A DNA stretch of 64,000 nt, taken from Paenirhizobium cremeum (lineage in GTDB: Bacteria; Pseudomonadota; Alphaproteobacteria; Rhizobiales; Rhizobiaceae). How positions within the stretch are numbered: position 1 is the first letter of the stretch; every line of letters begins with the position of its first letter. Positions 7,635-63,814 of this stretch are shown in pieces. The notes beneath the pieces are model-generated. The model worked only from the letters and a program-made list of their open reading frames with translations, did no database searches and was not told the origin of the DNA. Location of the stretch: positions 427,251 to 491,250 of the forward strand of contig NZ_JAGGCS010000001.1 of the NCBI RefSeq assembly GCF_022884085.1, given 5' to 3'. A program made the translations under genes and the position numbers.

Positions 7635-8408
7635 TTATTGCTGGCATGTGCTGATCGCCGCGCGGATCAGTCCAGCCAGATAGTCGGCCATAACCCCTTG
7701 GCCGACTGTATCTGCGATCAGGTCGTTTCGAACCTCGATCATCACGTTGAGGTGCCCGTGCGGAAGCCCGTGCAGCCTCAGAGTATGGGTAACGCCGTCC
7801 TCGGGACCGTACGGCGAGTTCCTTTCGACGCGGAAGGGACCGCCTTCCGCCGCCGCCAGCATGGCATCGGCCAGCCGGCGGTCCGTATCGTGGAGAATGC
7901 CGATCTCGACCGCGCGCGGCTTGCCGAGATAGACCGGCGTGAAACTGTGCACCGTCACCAGAACCGTCTGCCGCCCCCCTGCCGTCCGGTCGGCAATGAT
8001 CGCCGCGATCCGGTCGTGAAACGGCACGTAGAGAGCGGCTGTGCGGGCGTAACGCTCCGCCGGAGACAGATCCCGGTTGCCGGGAATTTCGTAGATCTCG
8101 CTCACCTCCGGCATGGCGGCCGGAGCTTCCGGAGGACGATTGCAATCGTAAACGAGCCGGGAGAAGCGTTGGTGGACGAGCGTTGCATCGAGATGTGCGG
8201 AAAGGGCTCGCGCCACCGCCAAAGCGCCGGGGTCCCACGCAATGTGGCTGGAAAGCGCCTGCTCATCCAGTCCGAGATCGCCGACGCTCGCCGGCAGCCT
8301 TTGCGAAGCATGCTCGCAGACGAGAAGTGCGACCCCCGCTCCTTGCGGATTGTCGACGCCGACGGCTTCGCCTTCTGCTGCCGTAAGGATATCCGACCTC
8401 AAGAGCAT
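7635..8408 (-). CDS. N-formylglutamate amidohydrolase family protein (HutG-like fold)
   Basis: 257 residues. Family motifs are visible in order: CEHAS near residue 31, a DPGA segment, FSRLVYDCNRP, VTVHSFTP, and ERNSPYGPEDG near the C-terminus. These form the zinc site and substrate pocket of deformylases acting on N-substituted glutamate. No other histidine-degradation gene is nearby, so a role in the Hut pathway is unlikely. As first gene of an operon with a gamma-glutamyl ligase, it is a plausible hydrolase of a gamma-glutamyl product. That is inference. ATG 8408 has GGGGGA about 6 bases upstream. Transcription is divergent from the RpiR-type gene. Confidence 0.82.
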   Translation of the reverse strand: MLLRSDILTAAEGEAVGVDNPQGAGVALLVCEHASQRLPASVGDLGLDEQALSSHIAWDPGALAVARALSAHLDATLVHQRFSRLVYDCNRPPEAPAAMPEVSEIYEIPGNRDLSPAERYARTAALYVPFHDRIAAIIADRTAGGRQTVLVTVHSFTPVYLGKPRAVEIGILHDTDRRLADAMLAAAEGGPFRVERNSPYGPEDGVTHTLRLHGLPHGHLNVMIEVRNDLIADTVGQGVMADYLAGLIRAAISTCQQ

Positions 8409-28029: not shown

Positions 28030-29619
28030 ATGAACGATTATACGAAATACCTCGCAGGTCGTGTCACATCCGCCGGCATGAACCGTCGTGAATTCATGGG
28101 GCGGGCCATGGCCGCAGGCTTGACGCTTACGGCCGCAAGCAGCCTTTTCGCCGCCAGCGCCGAAGCCCAGGAACCCAAGAAGGGCGGTCACCTGAAGCTC
28201 GGCCTTGAAGGCGGCTCCGCCACCGACAGCAAGGACCCCGCAAAATTCCTGTCCCAGTTCATGTTCTGCGTCGGCCGTTGCTGGGGCGACATGCTGGTCG
28301 AAAGCGACCCGCTGACCGGCGCTGCCGTTCCTGCTCTTGCCGAGAGCTGGGAGCCCTCCGCGGACGCCGCCACCTGGACCTTCAAGATCCGCAAGGGCGT
28401 GCAGTTCCACGACGGCAAGGAACTGACGGTCGACGATGTTGTCGCCACGCTCAAGCGCCACACCGACGAAAAGTCGGAATCGGGCGCACTCGGCGTGATG
28501 AAGTCGATCAAGGAAATCAAGAAGGACGGCGACAATCTCGTTCTCGTGCTCACCGAGGGCAATGCGGACATGCCGCTGCTCCTCACCGACTACCACCTCG
28601 TCATCCAGCCGAATGGCGGCAATGACGATCCGCTGGCCTCGATCGGCACCGGCCCCTACAAGCTGACGAGCTTCGAGGCCGGCGTTCGCGCGACCTTCGA
28701 AAAGAACCCGAACGACTGGCGTTCCGACCGCGGCTATGTCGACTCGATCGAGATCATCGGCATGAACGATGCCACCGCCCGCATCGCGGCGCTGTCGTCA
28801 GGTCAGGTTCACTACATCAACCGCGTCGATCCGAAGACGGTGGCGCTCCTGAAGCGCGCCCCGAATGTCGAGATCCTCAACACCTCCGGCCGCGGCCACT
28901 ACGTCTTCATCATGCACTGCAACACCGCGCCGTTCGACAATAACGATCTGCGGCTTGCGCTGAAATACGCCATGGACCGCGAGACAATGGTGGAAAAGAT
29001 CCTCGGCGGCTACGGCAAGGTCGGCAACGACTTCCCGATCAACAACACCTACGCCCTCTTCCCCGAAGGCATCGAGCAGCGCGCCTACGATCCCGACAAG
29101 GCGGCTTTCCACTTCAAGAAGTCGGGTCATTCCGGCTCGGTGCTGTTGCGCACCTCGGAAGTCGCGTTCCCCGGCGCCGTCGATGCGGCGGTCCTCTACC
29201 AGCAGAGCGCCAAGAAGGCCGGCATCGACATCGAAGTGAAGCGCGAGCCGGGTGACGGATACTGGTCGAACGTCTGGAACGTCCAGCCCTTCTCCACCTC
29301 CTACTGGGGCGGTCGCCCGACCCAGGACCAGATGTATTCCACCGCCTATCTTTCGACGGCGGACTGGAACGACACCCGCTTCCTGCGTCCGGACTTCGAC
29401 AAACTCCTGCTGCAGGCCCGCTCGGAACTCGACGAGACCAAGCGCAAGGAAATGTATCGCGAGATGGCGATGATGGTCCGCGACGAAGGCGGCCTGATCC
29501 TGCCGATGTTCAACGACTTCGTGAACGCGGCAAGCACTAAGGTGAAGGGCTACGTTCACGATATCGGCAACGACATGTCGAACGGCTACGTCGCCACCCG
29601 CGTCTGGCTCGAAAGTTGA
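28030..29619 (+). CDS. Peptide/opine-type ABC substrate-binding protein (SBP_bac_5)
   Basis: 529 residues from ATG 28030 with GAAGGAA upstream. A twin-arginine-type leader (MNRREFMGRAM, then LTLTAASSLFAASAEA) suggests Tat export. The mature part is a class C binding protein (family 5): GGHLKLGLEGG, LAESWEPSADAATWTFKIR, and the C-terminal GLILPMFNDF. Known ligands of the family are peptides, opines, nickel complexes and oligosaccharides. It is followed by its permeases and a double ATPase, and preceded by the carnitine genes, so it may import a carnitine-related compound. It has a close paralogue at 35488. Confidence 0.88.
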   Translation: MNDYTKYLAGRVTSAGMNRREFMGRAMAAGLTLTAASSLFAASAEAQEPKKGGHLKLGLEGGSATDSKDPAKFLSQFMFCVGRCWGDMLVESDPLTGAAVPALAESWEPSADAATWTFKIRKGVQFHDGKELTVDDVVATLKRHTDEKSESGALGVMKSIKEIKKDGDNLVLVLTEGNADMPLLLTDYHLVIQPNGGNDDPLASIGTGPYKLTSFEAGVRATFEKNPNDWRSDRGYVDSIEIIGMNDATARIAALSSGQVHYINRVDPKTVALLKRAPNVEILNTSGRGHYVFIMHCNTAPFDNNDLRLALKYAMDRETMVEKILGGYGKVGNDFPINNTYALFPEGIEQRAYDPDKAAFHFKKSGHSGSVLLRTSEVAFPGAVDAAVLYQQSAKKAGIDIEVKREPGDGYWSNVWNVQPFSTSYWGGRPTQDQMYSTAYLSTADWNDTRFLRPDFDKLLLQARSELDETKRKEMYREMAMMVRDEGGLILPMFNDFVNAASTKVKGYVHDIGNDMSNGYVATRVWLES

Positions 29620-55387: not shown

Positions 55388-55418
55388 TTGCGGAAGACAC
55401 CTGTTTTAAATGAGGAAA

Positions 55419-55433
55419 TGGTGGGCCCGGAGG
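55419..55433. repeat. Left copy of 15-bp direct repeat, candidate attachment core (tRNA 3'-end like)
   Basis: TGGTGGGCCCGGAGG, repeated exactly at 57472-57486. Read on the minus strand it is a tRNA-like 3' end: CCTC of the T stem, CGGGCCC acceptor strand, A discriminator and CCA. Nothing to its right continues as a tRNA, so it is a fragment. Confidence 0.55.
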
Positions 55434-55585
55434 AACCTGTCGAGCCGCGTAAGCTATTGCAATCGCTTCTGTATTCCGGTCTCTTGCGTCGTGATGCCAA
55501 CACATTTGTGGGATTTTCTGGGACTACTGTGGACATTTCCCATGGCCGCATGAATATTTTGACGGCAACTGAGCGAGGGCGGCGA

Positions 55586-56449
55586 TTGAGCAAAGCGGGC
55601 GATCATCACTACGTTCCCCAGTTCCACTTGGGTAAGTGGAGCGATCAGCAAGGCAAGATCAGCCGGTGGGGGCGAATCCCGTTTAACAACAAGCTCGTCT
55701 GCACACCGGTCACCACCGCTGCCACGGCATACGTCCCCGGCCTCTACTCGTTGGCCCACGTCAACGATGAAGAGGCACAGCAAATTGAAATCAAGCTATT
55801 CGGAAAAATCGAGACCGCAGCGAAGCCGGTCCTTGACAAGCTGATCCGCCACGGACCCGCCAAGCTCTCGGTTGAAGAGCGATACTGGTGGACCATCTAC
55901 CTTAACGCCTCACTGCTGCGCGTCCCGCACATCGTGGAGATGGTCACGTCGAGCGTGCAGGAGCGGATATCTCAGGACCTTTCCCAACCGATCCCTGAGT
56001 TTGACGCCGCGAAAGGTGATAGACCAGAAAGCACGCTGTACGAGTGGGCTTCGAAGCACGCTCCAGCCCGTGTCGCTAACTCGGGACTGAAGGTCCTGGT
56101 GGACCTTATCCAAAGCGAGAAGGCTATCGACCGCATTATACACCTTCGATGGCTCGTCAAAGACGTCTCAACAGGACCGAGGCGGCTACTCCTTGGGGAC
56201 AACCCTTTTGAACGGGTCGGCGACCTGTACAAGTCACGCACCGCCATCTCGATACCGTTGTCTCCGACGCACCTTTTCATCGCCAGTGATGCGCCGGACA
56301 TTCTCGACCACTTTGCCAGGATGCCTGCTCGCGATGTGGTCAAGGCGAACAACCAATCATCCCTCATCAACGCGAAGAAGTTCGTTTACGGAAATGCGGA
56401 GCGCGACTTCATCGACGCCTACCTGCCGCGCCATCAGCTCAGCACGTAA
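55586..56449 (+). CDS. DUF4238 protein
   Basis: About 287 residues if TTG 55586 is used (GAGGGCGG upstream). The frame is open to 55388, and ATG 55547 is an alternative. The chosen start puts the family hallmark HHYVPQFHLGKW six residues from the N-terminus, as usual. Further family features are EERYWWTIYLNASLLRVPHI, LLLGDNPF and PLSPTHLFIAS. DUF4238 proteins have no established activity; they occur scattered on mobile elements. GC and codon use are lower than in the chromosomal genes. It ends overlapping the convergent NADAR gene by 16 bases. Confidence 0.75.
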   Translation: MSKAGDHHYVPQFHLGKWSDQQGKISRWGRIPFNNKLVCTPVTTAATAYVPGLYSLAHVNDEEAQQIEIKLFGKIETAAKPVLDKLIRHGPAKLSVEERYWWTIYLNASLLRVPHIVEMVTSSVQERISQDLSQPIPEFDAAKGDRPESTLYEWASKHAPARVANSGLKVLVDLIQSEKAIDRIIHLRWLVKDVSTGPRRLLLGDNPFERVGDLYKSRTAISIPLSPTHLFIASDAPDILDHFARMPARDVVKANNQSSLINAKKFVYGNAERDFIDAYLPRHQLST

Positions 56450-57096
56450 GCGCGCCACGTCTCCCATTCGACGCATTCGTCTGGAGAGAGGACGCCCCAG
56501 CGGCGAGCGGTTAACTCATGCTGAGGCTCACCAGTCACGTCCATGGCAAGTCCATCTGAAAATGTACCGGGTCCGGGGTTGCGCTCCCACCAATAGCACG
56601 AGGATTCTGGGTGCCAGAGCAGACACCATCCGGTGGCCGAACTAGCCGGGTGTAGCAAATGGTCACGCCGCTCAACAAGGAGGCGACCGAGATGATTTTC
56701 TCCCACGCCATCGCACACGCCCCAGAACTGATCGCCCCAGTGATTGCCCTCAACCAGATGGGCGTTCCCTGTAGCCAGCAGCCTTTTGGCGAGCGACGAC
56801 CGGGGGGCGAACTTCAAGGCCAGTAGTTCGCGCGTCACCCCGATCTTTACCTCATCCCAGTCCGCTCGCAGCATCACGCGGTTACCCAACTTTTTGGCAA
56901 GACCGGGAGATTTGGCAAAGACGATTTTCTTTCTTTCCGCCAGATCCTCAGCCTTAGCTGCTTGATAAGCATGTTCGACGCTCGCGACGGTGAATCCTTC
57001 CCACGGGAAAGGGCTCAGGTAAAAGTTGGAGAGAAATCGATAGTCCCCTCTGAACTCGTCAATCGCAGCCAGCACTTTCCTTTCCTTGGCGGGCAC
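56434..57096 (-). CDS. NADAR/YbiA-like N-glycosidase domain protein
   Basis: 220 residues from GTG 57096; GTG 57075, behind AAGGAAAGG, is an equally good start. The N-terminal 150 residues match the NADAR (DUF1768) domain: FRGDYRFLSNFYLSPF, VASVEHAYQAAKA, and NHWGDQFWGV. A C-terminal 70-residue extension (rich in Trp) is not recognised. NADAR domains cleave N-glycosidic bonds of ADP-ribosyl or riboflavin-pathway substrates, and some reverse guanine ADP-ribosylation. On a mobile module, a role in phage or toxin biology is possible. Confidence 0.82.
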   Translation of the reverse strand: MPAKERKVLAAIDEFRGDYRFLSNFYLSPFPWEGFTVASVEHAYQAAKAEDLAERKKIVFAKSPGLAKKLGNRVMLRADWDEVKIGVTRELLALKFAPRSSLAKRLLATGNAHLVEGNHWGDQFWGVCDGVGENHLGRLLVERRDHLLHPASSATGWCLLWHPESSCYWWERNPGPGTFSDGLAMDVTGEPQHELTARRWGVLSPDECVEWETWRAYVLS

Positions 57097-57381: not shown

Positions 57382-57468
57382 GTCCAGAGGCGTCCCAGGT
57401 AATCCAGAAAGCCCGGAAACGCTAGGGCTTGGGAGACGCCTGTGGACGGTATTGGACGTGTATGGACG
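57382..57468. repeat. Inverted repeat and three helically phased TGGACG repeats
   Basis: GTCCAGAGGCGTCCCA (57382-57397) is imperfectly complementary to 57430-57447. TGGACG follows at 57443, 57453 and 57463, exactly 10 bases apart, ending 4 bases before the 15-bp repeat. The phasing places all copies on one face of the helix. Confidence 0.5.
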
Positions 57469-57471
57469 AAT

Positions 57472-57486
57472 TGGTGGGCCCGGAGG
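57472..57486. repeat. Right copy of 15-bp direct repeat, candidate attachment core
   Basis: Identical to 55419-55433. It marks the boundary between the DUF4238/NADAR module and the mobilisation module. The flanks differ on both sides, so the identity ends exactly at 15 bases. Confidence 0.55.
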
Positions 57487-57640
57487 GCCTGCCGAATTCC
57501 AAGAAATTCAGCAGCTTAACCCCGTGTGGGACGAAGACCCCATTTTATAAAAATCAATGGCTTAGTAAAGCCGCCGTCCCACTTTTTCCGGCCGTTTCCG
57601 CCCCTTCTTTCCCGGTCGCGTGGCGACCAGGGAGGCGTGC

Positions 57641-58402
57641 ATGAGCGGGGCGCGGCCGTTTCGGGACGTGAAGCTGCAATGGCTTCAGCAGTTGAGCTGC
57701 GACAAGGATTTGAGCGACAGCGCGCGATCCGTGGCGCTCTACATCATCACCACGCATTTGAACGGCCACACCGAGAAGGCGTGGCCGTCCTATCAAACGA
57801 TTGCCGACGCGACCGGCAAGAGCGTCAAGACCATTCAGCGCGCCGTCCGTGAACTTGAAGTCAAAGGATGGTTCGAGGTCCAGCGCGGAAATGGCGTCGG
57901 GCACAACACAGAATATCGTCCCTCAGCGGCGTCGATTTTACGCGCATCGGACGCCCGCGAAAAGACGGACAAAGTTGTCACCCTTTACCCTGACAAAGGC
58001 GGTCAAAATCGTCCGGAAAGGCGGTCAGATGTGTCCAGCGAAGGGGGACAAATATGTCCACCAAACCCAGAGAAAGAAAAAATATATAAACCTAACCCGC
58101 GCGAGGACGCCCCGCCGCGCGTCGAGACGCGGCGAGCCGTCCCGCTCGTTTTCGTGGCCGAGACCAAGGCGGATCAGGTCGAGCAATGGCGCACCTGGTT
58201 ACGACGTCACGGCTTTCCCTCGATCGACACCTTGGGCATGCGGACGGTGAAAACCGGAAAACCGGGCTATGCCTTGCCCAGCTATTGGCCACCGGACGAT
58301 GCGAGCCCGAGTGCGCTGGATTGGATCGCTTTCTTCAGCCGTCGCCGTGACCACATCGCCGACGAAACCGCCCGGCAGACGACAGTCCGGAGGGTTTCAT
58401 GA
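57641..58402 (+). CDS. HTH_36 domain protein, replication-initiator-like
   Basis: 253 residues from ATG 57641 with AGGGAGG 6 bases upstream. The N-terminal winged HTH (about 20-90) reads SYQTIADATGKSVKTIQRAV followed by RELEVKGWFEV. The rest is polar and poorly conserved until a C-terminal LDWIAFFSRRRDH. Such proteins often start replication of, or regulate, plasmids and mobile islands. It overlaps mobC by 4 bases (ATGA), making it the first gene of the mob operon. Confidence 0.75.
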   Translation: MSGARPFRDVKLQWLQQLSCDKDLSDSARSVALYIITTHLNGHTEKAWPSYQTIADATGKSVKTIQRAVRELEVKGWFEVQRGNGVGHNTEYRPSAASILRASDAREKTDKVVTLYPDKGGQNRPERRSDVSSEGGQICPPNPEKEKIYKPNPREDAPPRVETRRAVPLVFVAETKADQVEQWRTWLRRHGFPSIDTLGMRTVKTGKPGYALPSYWPPDDASPSALDWIAFFSRRRDHIADETARQTTVRRVS

Positions 58403-58881
58403 CGGCTGGCGATTTGAAGGGAGCAAGGCGACCCCTGTCATACGGCGAGCCTTCTGACAGGGAGCCTTGTGAGGGGAGGCAGGCCTCCCCTTCAAACCCC
58501 ACCAAGAACGCCCGGCGATCGCCCAAAGGCGACCTCAATGCCGTCGTGGTTTTCCGTTGCACGGCATCGGAAAAGCAGGCGCTGACCACACGCGCGGCGC
58601 GGGCCGGTCTGCCCTTCGCCACGCTGATGCGGGAAGCGCTCGGCCTCACCGAGGCGCGCCGCCGCCGTCCGGTTCCCAAGGTGGACCCGGAGCTGGTGCG
58701 CGCCGTCGCCCGGATCGGCGGCAACCTCAACCAGATCGCGCGATGGCTGAACACGGCCCAGGCGCAGGGCCAGTTGTCCGCCATCGACGCAATCACGGTT
58801 GCCGCCCGCCTGGTCGCCATCGAGCGGGCGCTATCGGAAACGCTTGAGCAGTTCACGGCCAAGGATGGCGCGCCGTGCTGA
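58399..58881 (+). CDS. mobC: MobC/MbeC-like relaxosome accessory protein
   Basis: 160 residues. A 45-residue polar N-terminus is followed by a ribbon-helix-helix (VVVFRCTASEKQALTTRAAR) and the MobC signature RIGGNLNQIARWLN near residue 110. MobC proteins bind oriT and open the nick region for the relaxase. The start overlaps the previous stop (ATGA), and its end overlaps the relaxase start by 7 bases. The DNA for its variable N-terminus contains two perfect hairpins that may be the transfer origin. Confidence 0.85.
   Translation: MTAGDLKGARRPLSYGEPSDREPCEGRQASPSNPTKNARRSPKGDLNAVVVFRCTASEKQALTTRAARAGLPFATLMREALGLTEARRRRPVPKVDPELVRAVARIGGNLNQIARWLNTAQAQGQLSAIDAITVAARLVAIERALSETLEQFTAKDGAPC
58433..58490. 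promoter_or_regulatory. Candidate oriT (two hairpins) inside the 5' part of mobC
   Basis: CCCTGTCA (58433-58440) pairs with TGACAGGG (58455-58462), and GGGGAGGC (58473-58480) with GCCTCCCC (58483-58490); both stems are perfect 8-bp. They lie just before the relaxase gene, where relaxosome binding sites are expected. No nick site could be identified. Confidence 0.4.
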
Positions 58882-60500
58882 TCAAGTTCTTCCGAAACGG
58901 CCAGGGCGGCGGATCGGGACCGGTTGACTATCTGGTCGAGCGCGACGTCGTCGCTTACGACCAGAACCGCAACGCGATCCGCGACGAGCACGGTGAGATC
59001 ATGCTGTTTGCCCGCGAGCCGCTGCCGGAAGTGCTGCGTGGCGATGCCGACCGCATGCGCGCGCTGATCGACGCATGCCCGCACCAGCGGACCTATCGTG
59101 CCGGCGTCATCGCCTTCACGGCGGAAGACGCGCCGGACCCTGTCCAGCAACGGCAGGTCATGGACGCCTTCGAGAGCCTTGCCTTTGCCGGCCTCGAACC
59201 CGACCAGCACGATATGCTTTGGGTCCGCCATACCCATGAGGGCCGCGTCGAACTGCATTTCGTGACGCCGCGCATGGAGCTTGTGAGCGGTCGCAGCCTC
59301 AACATCGCGCCGCCTGGCTACCAGAAGCATTACGACGCCTTGCGCGATGTTCTGAACAAGGAACACGGCTGGAATGACCCAATGGCGCCGGAGCGCGCCC
59401 GCGAGACAGTCAGTCTCATCGAAAGCGTCAGGCGCGGCGATACCCGCGAGCTGATCCATGACTGGATCGTTCAGCGCATCGAGACCGGCCAAATCCATGA
59501 CCGCCCGAGCATGACCGAGGCCCTGACGGCGGCGGGTTTTGACCTGCCGCGCGCCGGCAAAAACTACATCACCGTGCGCGATCCGGAGACGGACGAGCGC
59601 TGGCGTCTGAAAGGAGACCTGTTCCGTGAAAACTGGACCCGAGAGAATACCCTTGAGCGAGCGCTTGAAAGAGCGGCTGGCGAGCCCAGCCGTTCCGGAA
59701 GCCGACTCGACGCCATCGCTCCCGACGAGCTTCGAGACCGATTGGAGCGAAGCCTTGAAGCGCGCGCAAGCTACAATCGAGACCGATATCCGCAGCTTCA
59801 CGGACGCGAACCGCCAGCACTTGAGCGAGGCACTGGCGACGACCGAGGCGGACGTGAACCGGCTCCGGTCGATGGTGCAGCCGTTCTTCCTGACCATGGG
59901 CGCGGTGACGTTGCTGATCGTCCTGTTGAGCTTCACCGCGAGCTGGTTTTGGGCGGGGCTGATGATCGACCGCGCCCAGAACGCCAGCCTTTGGCAAATG
60001 GGCTTGCAGATCAACCAGACCAGCAACGGCAAAGTCCTGACCTGGGACGTCAACCGCCTTCAGCTGACCACCTGCCAGGCCGGGCCCGCCAAAACACCAT
60101 GCCTGAAGATCGTCCAGGGAGATTGACCGATGACCACACCTACCAGACCACCGATGCCCGAGAGCCTGTCGCCGCTGGAGCGCGAATTGCTGGGTTACGT
60201 CGAGACGTTGATGAACGCATTGAGCAGCGGGACCGCGCAGTTCGAGGCGCTGGAGAAACGCTCGACCGACATAATCGAAAACCGGCAAGCGGCTTTGGAA
60301 GGATCGCTGAAATCGCTCATCGCGTCACAGGCTACGTTCATGAACGCCTGGCTCGCCTCCGGCAATCCTTCCAGCGACACGGCCTCGACCGAGCTGACGG
60401 AAGCGTTCGCCCTGCTGGAGCAAGCCGAAGCGATGCTGGAGGCGGTCGCGCCGCCGACGTGACAGCCCGACCGCCTGCGCCAAGTCGCGGCCGTAACTGA
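58875..60500 (+). CDS. mobA: ColE1/MbeA-type relaxase (MOB_P5-like) with overprinted 3' half
   Basis: 541 residues from GTG 58875. The N-terminus (KFFRNGQGGGSGPVDYL) and the following 200 residues match the ColE1 MbeA pattern (ALIDACP, AGVIAFTAED, TPRMELVSGR). The ColE1 metal motif H-x6-E-x-N reads here His119-Glu126-His128 (RHTHEGRVELHFV), so Asn is replaced by His. The relaxase domain ends near residue 250. Beyond it the protein is Arg/Asp/Pro-rich and of low complexity, because this DNA also encodes two proteins in another frame. It nicks oriT and leads DNA into the recipient. Confidence 0.88.
   Translation: MLIKFFRNGQGGGSGPVDYLVERDVVAYDQNRNAIRDEHGEIMLFAREPLPEVLRGDADRMRALIDACPHQRTYRAGVIAFTAEDAPDPVQQRQVMDAFESLAFAGLEPDQHDMLWVRHTHEGRVELHFVTPRMELVSGRSLNIAPPGYQKHYDALRDVLNKEHGWNDPMAPERARETVSLIESVRRGDTRELIHDWIVQRIETGQIHDRPSMTEALTAAGFDLPRAGKNYITVRDPETDERWRLKGDLFRENWTRENTLERALERAAGEPSRSGSRLDAIAPDELRDRLERSLEARASYNRDRYPQLHGREPPALERGTGDDRGGREPAPVDGAAVLPDHGRGDVADRPVELHRELVLGGADDRPRPERQPLANGLADQPDQQRQSPDLGRQPPSADHLPGRARQNTMPEDRPGRLTDDHTYQTTDAREPVAAGARIAGLRRDVDERIEQRDRAVRGAGETLDRHNRKPASGFGRIAEIAHRVTGYVHERLARLRQSFQRHGLDRADGSVRPAGASRSDAGGGRAADVTARPPAPSRGRN
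59626..60126 (+). CDS. MobB/MbeB-like membrane protein, nested in the relaxase gene
   Basis: 166 residues in the +1 frame relative to the relaxase, GTG 59626 behind AAAGGAG (9-base spacing). A predicted coiled-coil part (DWSEALKRAQATIETDIRSF and DANRQHLSEALATTEADVNR) precedes one strong membrane helix (FFLTMGAVTLLIVLLSFTAS). ColE1 MbeB has the same coiled-coil-plus-membrane plan and is likewise embedded in mbeA; it helps the relaxase meet the transfer machinery. Its stop is 3 bases before the next nested gene. Confidence 0.8.
   Translation: MKTGPERIPLSERLKERLASPAVPEADSTPSLPTSFETDWSEALKRAQATIETDIRSFTDANRQHLSEALATTEADVNRLRSMVQPFFLTMGAVTLLIVLLSFTASWFWAGLMIDRAQNASLWQMGLQINQTSNGKVLTWDVNRLQLTTCQAGPAKTPCLKIVQGD
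60130..60462 (+). CDS. MobD/MbeD-like protein, nested in the relaxase gene
   Basis: 110 residues in the same +1 frame as the MobB-like gene; ATG 60130 with AGGGAG upstream. LSPLERELLGYVETLMNAL resembles the N-terminal helix of MbeD/MobD proteins, followed by a long helical, coiled-coil-like region (STDIIENRQAALEGSLKSLI). It is entirely inside the relaxase gene, as mbeD is in ColE1. Exact role is not established in this group; MbeD is linked to plasmid entry exclusion and transfer. Confidence 0.75.
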   Translation: MTTPTRPPMPESLSPLERELLGYVETLMNALSSGTAQFEALEKRSTDIIENRQAALEGSLKSLIASQATFMNAWLASGNPSSDTASTELTEAFALLEQAEAMLEAVAPPT

Positions 60501-60528
60501 TCCTCATTTCCGTCCGGAGTTTCGAGCC

Positions 60529-62382
60529 ATGAATTTGATTATTCAGCCCTATCGCTATGCCCTTTCCATTGCCGTCGTGGCGGCCGGTTTCCTGCTGATG
60601 GAGACAGCGCCGTTGTTCTGGCCACCCATCTACCAAAACGCGCGCGCCGCGATCCTGGTCATGTTTTGCGGGTTTGCGCTGCTGACCTTGGTGGGAGACA
60701 CCCAGGGCCGCATCCGCAGCGCGTCGGGCTTAGCTGTGGGGGCTGCCCTCCTTGCCGCGTCTGCTCTCGCCCTTACCGACCCCACCATTGCGGCAGCCGT
60801 CCTGCTCGACAGCTTCAAGGCTTGGCGCAATGCCGGGTATTCCGGAATCGAGAGCATCCGAGGCATGGTTTCGACATGGAACCGCTTCACAGAGGTGCAA
60901 AAGCTTGGTGTGCAAACCAGCCTCGCCATCGGCCTGCCTGTGCCGCTGTTCCTCATTCTGCGAGCGATTTCGATTGCCGCCCCCGCTTCGTCTAGCCGGG
61001 TTTCAAAACAAGGCCCATGGCGCGCCCGGTGGATGAACCGGAACGAGTTGCGCCAGCTCCGGCACAACGACACGGGCTTGCCGCTCGGTCTCTCCGGCGG
61101 CGCGATGCTGCGCTATCGCCCCAACGCGAAGACCGGATGGCGTGCCGGCCACCATGTCGCCATCGCCGGCACGCGCGCCGGGAAAGGCGTGTCCGTCGTC
61201 ATTCCCTCAATCATCGACCATGACGGACCGGTCGCCGTCCTCGACATCAAGGGGGAAAACTTCGCCGTCACCCGCCGCTATCGCCGATCGCTCGGGCGCC
61301 AGGTCGTGGTTCTCAATCCCTTCGGCGTCATCGAGCCGTCGAAGGATCGTTTCAACCCACTCGACTATATCCGGCAAGCGCATCTGGTCCGTGACATCGA
61401 AGTCATTGCCGAGGGACTTGTTCGACCGGAAGGCGGAAACGGCTCGCACTTTGCCGAAATGGCGAAATCCATGATTGCCGCCGTGATCGAGGTCGTCATG
61501 ACCAAGCGCTTGGAAGCCGATCGCAACCTGATCACCGTCATGGACCTGCTGTTTTCGGCCGGCTTTGAAAAGACGCTGACGGAATGGGCCGGAGCGCCGG
61601 AGACCTTCGGCACTCGTCCGGCCGCAGCCGCCGCCACCTTCCTCGCAGCCGGCGAGAACGAGCGCGGTGCGATCAAAACGACAATCAAGAAGGCCTTCGA
61701 TTGGGCGCGTTCCGACGAACTGCGCAGTTTCCTCAGCGCCTCCACATGCTCGCTCGAAAACCTGTTTGAGGGACGAGCCGACCTCTTCATGGTCGTGCCG
61801 CTCGACCAGGTGGACGCTCAGGCCGTCTTTCTCCGGCTGCTGACAAACATCATTCTTGGAATGGCTGTCCGACTGGAGGGGGCCAGGAGGCCGAAAAAGA
61901 ATGTGCTGCTGGTGCTGGACGAGTTTGTCCGCCTCGGCCGGATGGAAAAGCTGATCAACATCGCCAACGTTGCCGCCGGCTGCGGCATCGAGGCGCTGTT
62001 CATCACCCAGGACAAGGGGCAAATCGAAAGCGTCTATGGCAAGGGCGACACCGCCAGCATTCTCGGCTCCTGCGTCACCACCCGCATTTTCGGTCTCGGC
62101 CGCGCCGAGTTCGAAACCGCCAATTGGGCCGCGAATGCCCTTGGCGATCAGACGGTGCTTACCCGCACGAAGCAATCGTCTGCGAAGTTCGGGGAGAGCC
62201 GCAAGACCTCAACTGTCGAGCAACGGCAGAAGCTCATGACCGCCGATCAGATCCTGGAAATGAAGACCGGTAAGATGCTGCTGCTCGCAGGATCGAAACC
62301 GCCAGCGCTGGTTGACGCGATCGTATCGCACCGGCATTCGGCATATCGAGGGAAGCTGGACCGGAATCCGATGGTACCGTAG
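60529..62382 (+). CDS. VirD4/TraG-family type IV coupling protein
   Basis: 617 residues. N-terminal membrane helices (about 10-30, 40-58, 65-85, 128-146) are followed by the ATPase core with Walker A AGTRAGKGVSVV (near residue 215) and Walker B LLVLDEFVRLG (near 465). TraG/VirD4 hallmarks such as DIKGENFAVT and FITQDKGQIESVYG are present. Coupling proteins bring the relaxosome to a type IV secretion channel. ATG 60529, 28 bases after the relaxase stop. No mating-pair-formation genes are in the window. Confidence 0.92.
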   Translation: MNLIIQPYRYALSIAVVAAGFLLMETAPLFWPPIYQNARAAILVMFCGFALLTLVGDTQGRIRSASGLAVGAALLAASALALTDPTIAAAVLLDSFKAWRNAGYSGIESIRGMVSTWNRFTEVQKLGVQTSLAIGLPVPLFLILRAISIAAPASSSRVSKQGPWRARWMNRNELRQLRHNDTGLPLGLSGGAMLRYRPNAKTGWRAGHHVAIAGTRAGKGVSVVIPSIIDHDGPVAVLDIKGENFAVTRRYRRSLGRQVVVLNPFGVIEPSKDRFNPLDYIRQAHLVRDIEVIAEGLVRPEGGNGSHFAEMAKSMIAAVIEVVMTKRLEADRNLITVMDLLFSAGFEKTLTEWAGAPETFGTRPAAAAATFLAAGENERGAIKTTIKKAFDWARSDELRSFLSASTCSLENLFEGRADLFMVVPLDQVDAQAVFLRLLTNIILGMAVRLEGARRPKKNVLLVLDEFVRLGRMEKLINIANVAAGCGIEALFITQDKGQIESVYGKGDTASILGSCVTTRIFGLGRAEFETANWAANALGDQTVLTRTKQSSAKFGESRKTSTVEQRQKLMTADQILEMKTGKMLLLAGSKPPALVDAIVSHRHSAYRGKLDRNPMVP

Positions 62383-62474: not shown

Positions 62475-63326
62475 ATGTCTACAATCTCCGTTGGCAAATA
62501 CGAGGTTTCGGTACCGACGGTGAAATCTCTGTTCATCGAAATGTACTTTCAAGACCTGCGGTTAGCGAGCGGCACGGGAACTCTGGTCGCTTTTGATCGC
62601 GAAAGTCACTGCGCTCTCGTTACCAACCGCCACAACGTCACCGGTCGTGATCAAGTGACCGGAAAATGTCTTAGCAAGAACGCCGCGATTCCCGACAGCG
62701 TAGTTATCCATTTTCACGGATCAGGAGAACGCGCTGGCGAGTGGCTACCAATTCGACTTCCCCTGTATCGTCAAGATGGAACACCCTACTGGATCGAGCA
62801 CCCGCGGTTAGGCGCGGTTGCTGATATTGTTGCACTCAATTTGAGCTGGGGCGGTGATGTCCTAAAGTACCCTTACTACCTAAATACGGCTCTCGATAGA
62901 AAATCGATTCAAGTCGGCCCCGCAGAAGCCGTCAGTGTAATAGGGTTTCCCTTTGGCCTGTCGTCGATACAACGATTTCCGATTTGGGCAACTGGTTTCC
63001 TTGCTCAAGAACTGGAATTGATTTCGCCAGACGACCCAACCTTTTTGATCGATTGCCGAACAAGGCAAGGGCAATCCGGTTCAGCCGTCATTGCCTACCG
63101 AGTAGGTAACCATCGTATCCTTGGGGCAGATGGACGAATTGCATCGGTTCTTTCTCCACACCCGGTTTGGGAGTTTCTTGGCATATATTCTGGGCGGCTA
63201 AATCCGGAATCGGATTTGGGGAAGGTTTGGCATGTGTCAGCTGTCGAGGAGCTTGTGATTGCTGCTGCTGAGGATGATGAAAGAAGACGTGTGAGAGCGG
63301 CGCAAAATGGAGCGGATCAGGCGTAG
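62475..63326 (+). CDS. Trypsin-like serine protease (cargo)
   Basis: 283 residues from ATG 62475 with GGGAGCG 6 bases upstream. The catalytic triad can be placed as His53 (VTNRHNVTG), Asp117 (VADIVALNL) and Ser201 (RQGQSGSAVI). No signal peptide or membrane segment, so it is cytoplasmic, unlike most bacterial trypsins. Base composition is clearly lower in GC than in the mob genes. Intracellular trypsin-like proteases on mobile DNA are often effectors in phage-defence modules; here no partner nuclease or sensor is visible, so this remains inference. Confidence 0.8.
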   Translation: MSTISVGKYEVSVPTVKSLFIEMYFQDLRLASGTGTLVAFDRESHCALVTNRHNVTGRDQVTGKCLSKNAAIPDSVVIHFHGSGERAGEWLPIRLPLYRQDGTPYWIEHPRLGAVADIVALNLSWGGDVLKYPYYLNTALDRKSIQVGPAEAVSVIGFPFGLSSIQRFPIWATGFLAQELELISPDDPTFLIDCRTRQGQSGSAVIAYRVGNHRILGADGRIASVLSPHPVWEFLGIYSGRLNPESDLGKVWHVSAVEELVIAAAEDDERRRVRAAQNGADQA

Positions 63327-63363
63327 CCTGCGCGTATCACTAGGCTGAAAGCTCAAGTCGATG

Positions 63364-63377
63364 TTCCCGTTCGGGAA
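63364..63377. promoter_or_regulatory. Operator palindrome 1 of HipB-type repressor
   Basis: TTCCCGTTCGGGAA, with 6-bp arms around TT. It shares its arms with the palindrome at 63413-63426, 49 bases away. This spacing fits two dimers of a HipB-type repressor with DNA bending between them. Confidence 0.65.
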
Positions 63378-63412
63378 ATTTCTCTCGAAAAGATAGCTGA
63401 TATGGCGTTTTT

Positions 63413-63426
63413 TTCCCGATCGGGAA
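63413..63426. promoter_or_regulatory. Operator palindrome 2 of HipB-type repressor
   Basis: TTCCCGATCGGGAA, a perfect 14-bp palindrome ending 5 bases before the repressor's ATG at 63432. It covers the ribosome-binding region, so the upstream ATG at 63402 is unlikely to be used. Confidence 0.7.
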
Positions 63427-63431
63427 CAAAT

Positions 63432-63662
63432 ATGGCGAAGCAAGTCAAAAATCCAGCCGACATCGGCGCCTTGGTTCGCAGCACGCGCAAGGATCAAAAC
63501 TTGCGCCAGGATGAGCTTGCCGGCGTTTCGGGCGTCGGCCTCCGGTTTATTGTCGATCTCGAAGCAGGCAAGCCGACAGCACAGATCGGAAAAGTCTTGC
63601 AGGTTCTACAAACGCTCGGCTGTTCGATCGATATTTTGGCTCCTGGCGCGCGTCGAAAATGA
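63432..63662 (+). CDS. HipB/Y4mF-type XRE transcriptional repressor
   Basis: 76 residues. A single Cro/C1-type HTH fills most of the protein: IGALVRSTRKDQNLRQDELA, VSGVGLRFIVDLEAGKPTAQ and a final GCSIDILAPG strand that in HipB forms the dimer interface. Two operator palindromes precede it, so it autoregulates. Family members are antitoxins paired with HipA kinases. No HipA is encoded downstream; only a short interrupted frame begins at the ATGA overlap. Confidence 0.82.
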   Translation: MAKQVKNPADIGALVRSTRKDQNLRQDELAGVSGVGLRFIVDLEAGKPTAQIGKVLQVLQTLGCSIDILAPGARRK

Positions 63663-63814
63663 CGGTAAGGGTTCCCGTTGTCTCGTGAGACAAAAGAGTT
63701 ATCGGGGGAATTCCAACATTGTGGGCGCGGCAACAGGTGCGGCCCTTTTGGGCGGATACCGATGCGGCAAATGCCCTGCACAACATATCGGCGGCGAGCA
63801 ATAGAAAAAAGTGA
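63659..63814 (+). pseudogene. Possible interrupted small ORF coupled to the HipB-type gene
   Basis: ATG 63659 overlaps the repressor stop (ATGA). The frame reads nine codons (MTVRVPVVS), meets TGA at 63686-63688, then stays open for 41 more codons to TGA 63812-63814, ending in ADTDAANALHNISAASNRKK. The second part looks protein-like, but no family is recognised. Either the remnant of a second gene or chance. Confidence 0.25.

Follow-up and report, generated by a model that had tools for sequence, protein, structure and literature searches.

A stretch of 64,000 nucleotides (nt) from Paenirhizobium cremeum (contig NZ_JAGGCS010000001.1 of assembly GCF_022884085.1, positions 427,251 to 491,250, forward strand), called the window hereafter, carries a mobilization module resembling that of ColE1, in which two small genes are nested inside the relaxase gene. 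Between 57.5 and 62.4 kb one finds, in order, an HTH_36 gene, mobC, the gene of a relaxase of 541 amino acids (aa), whose +1 frame contains the nested genes n1 and n2, and lastly a gene of the VirD4/TraG type. The features of this block, by window position, are as follows.

57472..57486, + strand: left end, predicted attachment site attL; its 15-bp core matches exactly, on the reverse strand, the 3' end of a tRNA in relatives
57620..58402, + strand: HTH_36 protein (PF13730, 8.8e-13); a relative precedes mobC in 42 of 83 loci
58399..58881, + strand: mobC, relaxosome accessory protein (PF05713, 6.4e-8; PF21983; NikA-like, 2.5e-12)
58422..58500, no strand assigned: predicted origin of transfer (oriT), within the 5' part of the listed mobC open reading frame (ORF), with inverted repeats CCCTGTCA/TGACAGGG and GGGGAGGC/GCCTCCCC, plus CCTTGTGAGGGG
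58875..60500, + strand: relaxase (mobA, MbeA-like) with an H-E-H motif III (PF03432, 6.6e-6; NCBIfam MbeA, 158 bits, E 3.9e-46)
59611..59616, + strand: Shine-Dalgarno sequence of n1 (AAGGAG), within the relaxase codons for RLKG
59626..60126, + strand: n1, MbeB-like membrane protein, GTG start, 166 aa, +1 frame inside the relaxase ORF
60130..60462, + strand: n2, MbeD-like helical protein, ATG start, 110 aa, +1 frame inside the relaxase ORF
60529..62382, + strand: VirD4/TraG-type coupling protein (type IV coupling protein, T4CP; PF02534, 6.5e-62)

An earlier, sequence-only reading of this DNA had described a ColE1-type module, made up of mobC, the relaxase and two genes nested in it in the +1 frame, at 58399–60500. 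The genes and their layout are confirmed there. The unit itself, however, is larger and takes in the HTH_36 gene, the oriT-like DNA and the VirD4-like gene, the conserved block common to the relatives reaching from about 57470 to 62375. In 15 close relatives, mostly Rhizobiaceae with one labelled as an Arenimonas metagenome-assembled genome, the block is 91.8–93.5% identical in nucleotides (main alignment). Its left end falls at 57464–57472 in 14 of the 15 (the contig of locus L025 begins inside the block) and its right end at 62375–62376, again in 14 (the contig of L026 stops at 62191); in L024 the block is broken into two pieces. The setting is a 723-kb contig in a genome of 5.33 Mb, not a small plasmid with a ColE1 origin. 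A scan of representative genomes yielded 202 relatives; 80 loci among them were retained for reading, and together with the window and two plasmids they form the set of 83 loci to which the counts below refer. Matches to the relaxase at E ≤ 1e-20 occur in 11 of 397 genomes within the order and in 4 of 385 within the class, the own genome counted, so the spread of the module is sporadic, as in mobile DNA.

The nested genes are kept across this set with few losses. The n1 frame is open, with at least 100 codons and the same start codon at offset 751, in 80 loci; two of the failures (L040 and L052) go with a truncated relaxase and the third (L079) has a stop that affects n1 alone. Separate n2 genes are found in 76 loci; n2 is fused to n1 in L023 and absent in L064, while five loci lacking a separate n2 (L040, L050, L052, L076 and L092) also have a short relaxase. 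The check for stop codons in homologues that the sequence-only reading had proposed thus turned up few defects beside a full-length relaxase. Outside the 83 loci, L018 and L022 have lost the n1 part, and in L020 (genome G555) the relaxase frame continues into that of n1 to give a single relaxase-n1 frame, through decay or natural fusion. In six Rhodobacterales loci (L009, L045, L069, L080, L101 and L102) a third ORF of 108–116 aa begins just ahead of the relaxase stop, at an offset of about 1546.

The signals for translating the nested genes are also retained, and the good ribosome sites ascribed to them in the sequence-only reading are borne out, GGAG lying 9 nt before the start of n1 and 8 nt before that of n2 in the window. 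GGAG is found 9 nt 5' of the n1 start in 79 of 82 loci and 7 nt in one. The glycine codon of RLKG, inside which this site lies, is GGA in 80 of 82 loci, whereas GGA makes up 5.1% of the 1443 glycine codons in residues 1–240. The n2 start follows 0–6 nt past the n1 stop in 73 of 75 loci, and the translation of n2 is therefore likely coupled to that of n1.

Substitutions among relatives indicate selection on both frames. In 14 close loci with 541-aa relaxases (L028, with 543 aa, and the frameshifted L040 were left out), the part of the gene that encodes the relaxase alone has 72% of its nucleotide differences at relaxase codon position 3. Position 1, the third position of the nested frame, becomes the commonest site of change over n1 (52%) and n2 (47%). 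With three further sets of 18, 15 and 5 loci (Rhodobacterales), each of equal length, the share of position 1 rises in all four sets from 0.16–0.20 to 0.45–0.53 over n1 and 0.43–0.55 over n2; this is the outcome of the frame-specific comparison that had been suggested for the nested genes, and it favours them. In the 18-locus set the share of position 3 returns to 74% in the tail after n2. Among the 14 close loci, identity is 91.2% (n1) and 91.1% (n2) in the nested frame versus 88.2% and 88.4% in the relaxase frame over the same parts. The relaxase frame is lower in complexity there, in line with the sequence-only reading: 3.27 bits against 3.69 in its first 250 residues (30-aa windows). The relaxase frame still counts, because at least 490 aa of it are kept in 78 of the 83 loci (541 aa in the window), because shuffling the nested codons would break it (P.018 for the window and.003–.013 for four relatives), and because eight residues past position 251 are invariant among 19 aligned proteins.

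As for the proteins themselves, n1 consists of a short N-terminal segment, a long helix that includes a membrane segment, and a C-terminal segment with two cysteines that are invariant in 31 aligned members. The membrane helix claimed for a nested gene is thus found again: the best 19-aa Kyte-Doolittle mean is 2.24 (residues 87–105), and a stretch above 1.6 is present in 79 of 80 n1 proteins. AlphaFold models n1 as one long helix (predicted local distance difference test, pLDDT, 74; predicted template modelling score, pTM, 0.27) and n2 as two helices (pLDDT 77, pTM 0.47); a Foldseek search of PDB with the n1 model, itself weak at this pTM, gave no match with E ≤ 0.001. Profile comparison by HHalign joins n1 to six gammaproteobacterial MbeB-type proteins at 81% (1.2e-5), and to eleven MbeB/MobB proteins, including Rahnella, Paracoccus, cyanobacterial and Acinetobacter homologues, at 97.2% (4.6e-11, 141 columns). 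By these profiles n1 is a distant homologue of MbeB, as had been proposed. The proposed likeness of n2 to MbeD holds in part: near its start n2 has LTxLERxLLxxVExL, which resembles MTELExxLLxALE of MbeD, with HHalign matches of 80% (1.4e-5) and 67% (5.2e-5) over 51 and 23 columns, but the likeness is confined to this motif. No family in Pfam or NCBIfam is matched by n1 or n2 of the window. None of the 49 proteins matched by n1 has a Pfam domain, and where they are named at all it is as 'hypothetical' or 'uncharacterized'; searching with an n2 profile found at least 374 proteins at E ≤ 0.01 (capped at 7994 candidates), none of the 120 matches listed having a Pfam domain or a functional name. 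Three records, one from Neotabrizicola and two from Paracoccus, list the nested pair and omit the relaxase.

The relaxase is MbeA-like in its domain. Its NCBIfam MbeA match of 158 bits lies below the curated cut-off of 500, and its motif III reads W-V-R-H-x-H-E-x-x-V-E-L-H-F; the expected likeness to MbeA therefore stands for the domain, and not for the active site, where H-E-H replaces the H-E-N of ColE1. Most characterised relaxases have three histidines, the exception being MbeA of ColE1 with HEN, according to excerpts of PMC5030251. The third motif III residue is H in 82 of the 83 loci, L040 being truncated ahead of the motif; in L100 the E is missing. The enteric and G026 comparators have N as third residue, and we do not file the predicted relaxase under HEN (MOBP5/HEN) in the strict sense. 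In a quick tree of 97 rows (L040 omitted; the long branches, among them L006, L105, L109 and L020, are of unsure placement), nine HEN proteins form a single branch apart from the present family, with a support of 99 in the SH-like approximate likelihood ratio test (SH-aLRT). The H-E-H motif is not confined to this clade, since six further plasmid relatives have it: Rahnella pHW104 and an Aeromonas caviae plasmid with the spacing of the window, two cyanobacterial plasmids and Paracoccus pMARC2 and pAES4 with a longer one. The nested pair accompanies the relaxase in five of these six; in the sixth (A. caviae) the stretch stops too early. In another Aeromonas plasmid, pAerXIV, an H-H-H-like motif is combined with the nested pair, and in the cyanobacterial plasmids of Chondrocystis (L150) and Rippkaea (L152) the same pair goes with relaxases of 830 and 919 aa, that of Rippkaea annotated with a DUF3991 domain.

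The other parts of a transfer module are found around the relaxase gene. A mobC gene is present in 81 loci, the remaining two having at most 100 nt upstream, and its true start in the window may lie after the predicted oriT. The oriT words GCAAGGCGACCC, CTTGYGAGGG and CCTCCCCTTCRAACCCC co-occur in 72 of the 79 loci with room upstream, about 395–560 nt 5' of the relaxase start; nicking near CCTTG/YGAGG would be our guess. For the HTH_36 protein, a role in replication or regulation can likewise be guessed. The T4CP gene adjoins the relaxase gene in 20 loci; the 19 of them included in the quick tree form one clade (SH-aLRT 95), mostly Rhizobiaceae, which also holds L038 and L042 without a T4CP match. 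Elements that bring a coupling protein of their own are already recognized as a category (excerpts of PMC5704250 and PMC11389934). The own genome has a single PF03432 relaxase and, on other contigs, three VirB4-type genes and two more T4CPs; the element itself, like an integrative mobilizable element (IME), has its own relaxase without a complete secretion pore.

The borders of the block point to an element inserted at a tRNA gene. The exact 15-bp core stands at the left end of the block in 12 of the 14 close loci shown; L033 has one mismatch and in L024 the block start is displaced. In six of the 14 genomes the same contig has a second core 12–21 kb off, at the 3' end of a tRNA-Met(CAT) gene (ARAGORN), and an integrase gene runs up to this second core in five of the six, plus two further genomes on another contig. 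On this sequence evidence, the module in relatives lies in 12–21 kb elements bounded by a tRNA-end repeat and equipped with an integrase. The upstream flanks of the close loci have just two matches of at least 150 bp among themselves, and the insertion places therefore differ. The window contig itself yielded the left end plus one further core copy (55419), and a tRNA scan gave one odd call at 29260 in the window and none in a further 40 kb downstream. A separate contig of the same genome, C26 (L117; 6.6 kb), carries genes for a UvrD-like helicase, HipA, a helix-turn-helix protein and a tyrosine integrase, and ends exactly on the att core; its integrase is 80–85% identical to those of the relatives, and it may belong together with the window element. 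Between the core copies at 55419 and 57472, a DUF4238 gene and a NADAR-domain gene (− strand) occupy 55388–57096, likely the cargo of a neighbouring or older insertion. In L130/L144 (contig C1 of genome G783), two cores lie 91 bp apart beside tRNA-Met, with a left-end piece seemingly joined to a right-end piece, possibly a deletion scar of the element.

Taken together, we read the block as a ColE1-like mobilization module with a VirD4-type coupling gene that likely lets the element leave through the type IV secretion pore of a helper, and put the probability of this at about 0.8. MbeB and MbeD have a role in ColE1 transfer. Here, MobC and the H-E-H relaxase would nick oriT; n1, with its membrane helix as anchor, would hold the relaxosome at the membrane together with the helical n2, whose translation would be coupled to that of n1; and the element's own T4CP would pass the strand on to a VirB-type pore that is provided in trans. 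As no integrase was found near the module on this contig, excision of the window copy would depend on one encoded elsewhere. We infer these steps from homology and layout.

Several observations weigh against this reading. In synonymous codon shuffles the +1 frame of the window has 2 stops against 1.41 expected (P(≤ observed) 0.87), no fewer than the shuffles, and the same test gave P of 0.17, 0.019, 0.43 and 0.052 for four relatives. The share of position 3 in the short tails after n2 is just 45%, 44% and 39% in the three sets other than the 18-locus one, and the stop in n1 of L079 and the missing n2 of L064 occur despite a full-length relaxase. The shuffles are what one would expect if the nested ORFs were fortuitous open frames of a GC-rich gene, and a +1 frame that stays open in an individual genome carries little evidential weight. 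We nevertheless consider that explanation refuted, its chances being very slim: the nested genes are taken as real because of conservation and the codon-position shift among relatives and not the open frame of one genome, and start, lengths and frames persist over the 83 loci with a conserved Shine-Dalgarno sequence, membrane helix and cysteines. An origin of n1 and n2 as overprinted genes unrelated to MbeB and MbeD, membrane and helical proteins having arisen independently at the same place, would agree with the short match of n2, which makes its link to MbeD weaker than that of n1 to MbeB. Neither MbeB_N (PF04837) nor MbeD_MobD (PF04899) is among the families listed for 31 members each (best 25 of 41 and 25 of 40 families), while the nested proteins of a Klebsiella plasmid match these two at 1e-17 and 3e-20. 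However, gene order, frame and an n1 start just after RLKG are common to the enteric, Aeromonas, cyanobacterial and alphaproteobacterial genes, and with the long n1-MbeB alignment on top of this, we find independent origin unlikely.

No T4CP match was found in 63 of the 83 loci, 7 of them with less than 1 kb of contig left, and neither a right end nor an integrase was found in the stretches of the window contig searched. It is quite plausible, though we lean slightly against it, that the family is functional while the window copy is a stranded remnant, deprived of its right end and integrase and by now unable to move by itself. No att core, tRNA or integrase turned up downstream in the searched stretches of the contig, the integrase ORF of the same genome runs into an att core at the end of C26, and decay is seen in the relatives L018/L022, L020 and L144. 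Yet the ORFs of the module are intact and the window is among the 14 loci with the constrained substitution pattern; the contig ends may also conceal the true structure, and an integrase could act in trans.

Beyond the T4CP gene, at 62475..63326 (+ strand), lies a gene for a trypsin-like peptidase (PF13365, 4.4e-6), likely cargo, with no relative in the 80 genome loci. It is followed at 63433–63660 by a 76-aa ORF, HipB-like by eye and without a Pfam family at 0.001, which recurs 3' of the T4CP gene in eight relatives (L025, L028, L030–L032 and L034–L036); in four of the eight a HipA relative, 27–28% identical to HipA of C26, comes after it. A guess that 63357–63687 encodes a transfer-messenger RNA proved wrong, since Rfam found nothing at gathering scores in 13 kb around the module.

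Among the known systems, the mbeA/B/C/D genes of ColE1 (MOBP5/HEN; enteric plasmids) come closest in layout. In both, mobC overlaps the relaxase start, the relaxase N-terminus is 30–37% identical, and the MbeB and MbeD genes lie in the +1 frame and begin just after RLKG, at offset 688 in ColE1-type modules and 751 here. Unlike them, the module described here has H-E-H, nested proteins outside the Pfam models, its own T4CP gene, a location other than a small plasmid and, judged by the words searched, a different oriT DNA. The relaxase of CloDF13 is of another family. CloDF13 is likened here, by its description in excerpts of PMC11389934, as a mobilizable element with its own coupling protein. 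The closest alphaproteobacterial counterparts are on Paracoccus pMARC2 and pAES4, which have been classed as MOBP5(MOBHEN) and described with three ORFs, mobA, mobB and mobC, that overlap (PMC3832669, in part). They share H-E-H, with two residues more between the first H and E, and have nested ORFs of 135 and 89 aa and similar oriT DNA, their predicted oriT resembling, on the other strand, the right half of the one predicted here (PMC3832669, in part); unlike the element here, they are small plasmids, with no T4CP in the stretches read. The view that ColE1-type modules are best known from small enterobacterial plasmids thus needs qualifying, as ColE1-like modules on Paracoccus plasmids were published in 2013 (same source). 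The IMEs of Mesorhizobium, as described in the excerpts of PMC8627217, are likewise rhizobial, sit at tRNA genes including tRNA-Met, and carry a virD4-like T4CP where traACD is absent; they differ in having MOBF (traACD) or MOBQ relaxases, and those excerpts mention no ColE1-like module with nested genes. No description of a rhizobial ColE1-like module with a T4CP was found in the open-licence papers searched.

How such a module came about can be pictured, at roughly even odds, as follows: an old H-E-H relaxase branch, spread over alphaproteobacteria, gammaproteobacteria and cyanobacteria, would have retained two membrane-relaxosome genes as overprints of its own 3' half, their ribosome site lying in relaxase-domain codons; a mostly rhizobial clade would then have gained a coupling protein and become a tRNA-inserted mobilizable element that needs only the pore of a helper. 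The family provides abundant natural material for studying overlapping genes, with 202 relatives, three genes in one stretch, selection measurable on both frames and a ribosome site fixed inside conserved relaxase codons; the nested genes go unseen in annotation. Standing between the usual three histidines and the H-E-N of ColE1, the H-E-H motif makes the origin of the HEN active site testable, and the attached T4CP offers a way to find out which part of a helper is indispensable to a ColE1-like element.

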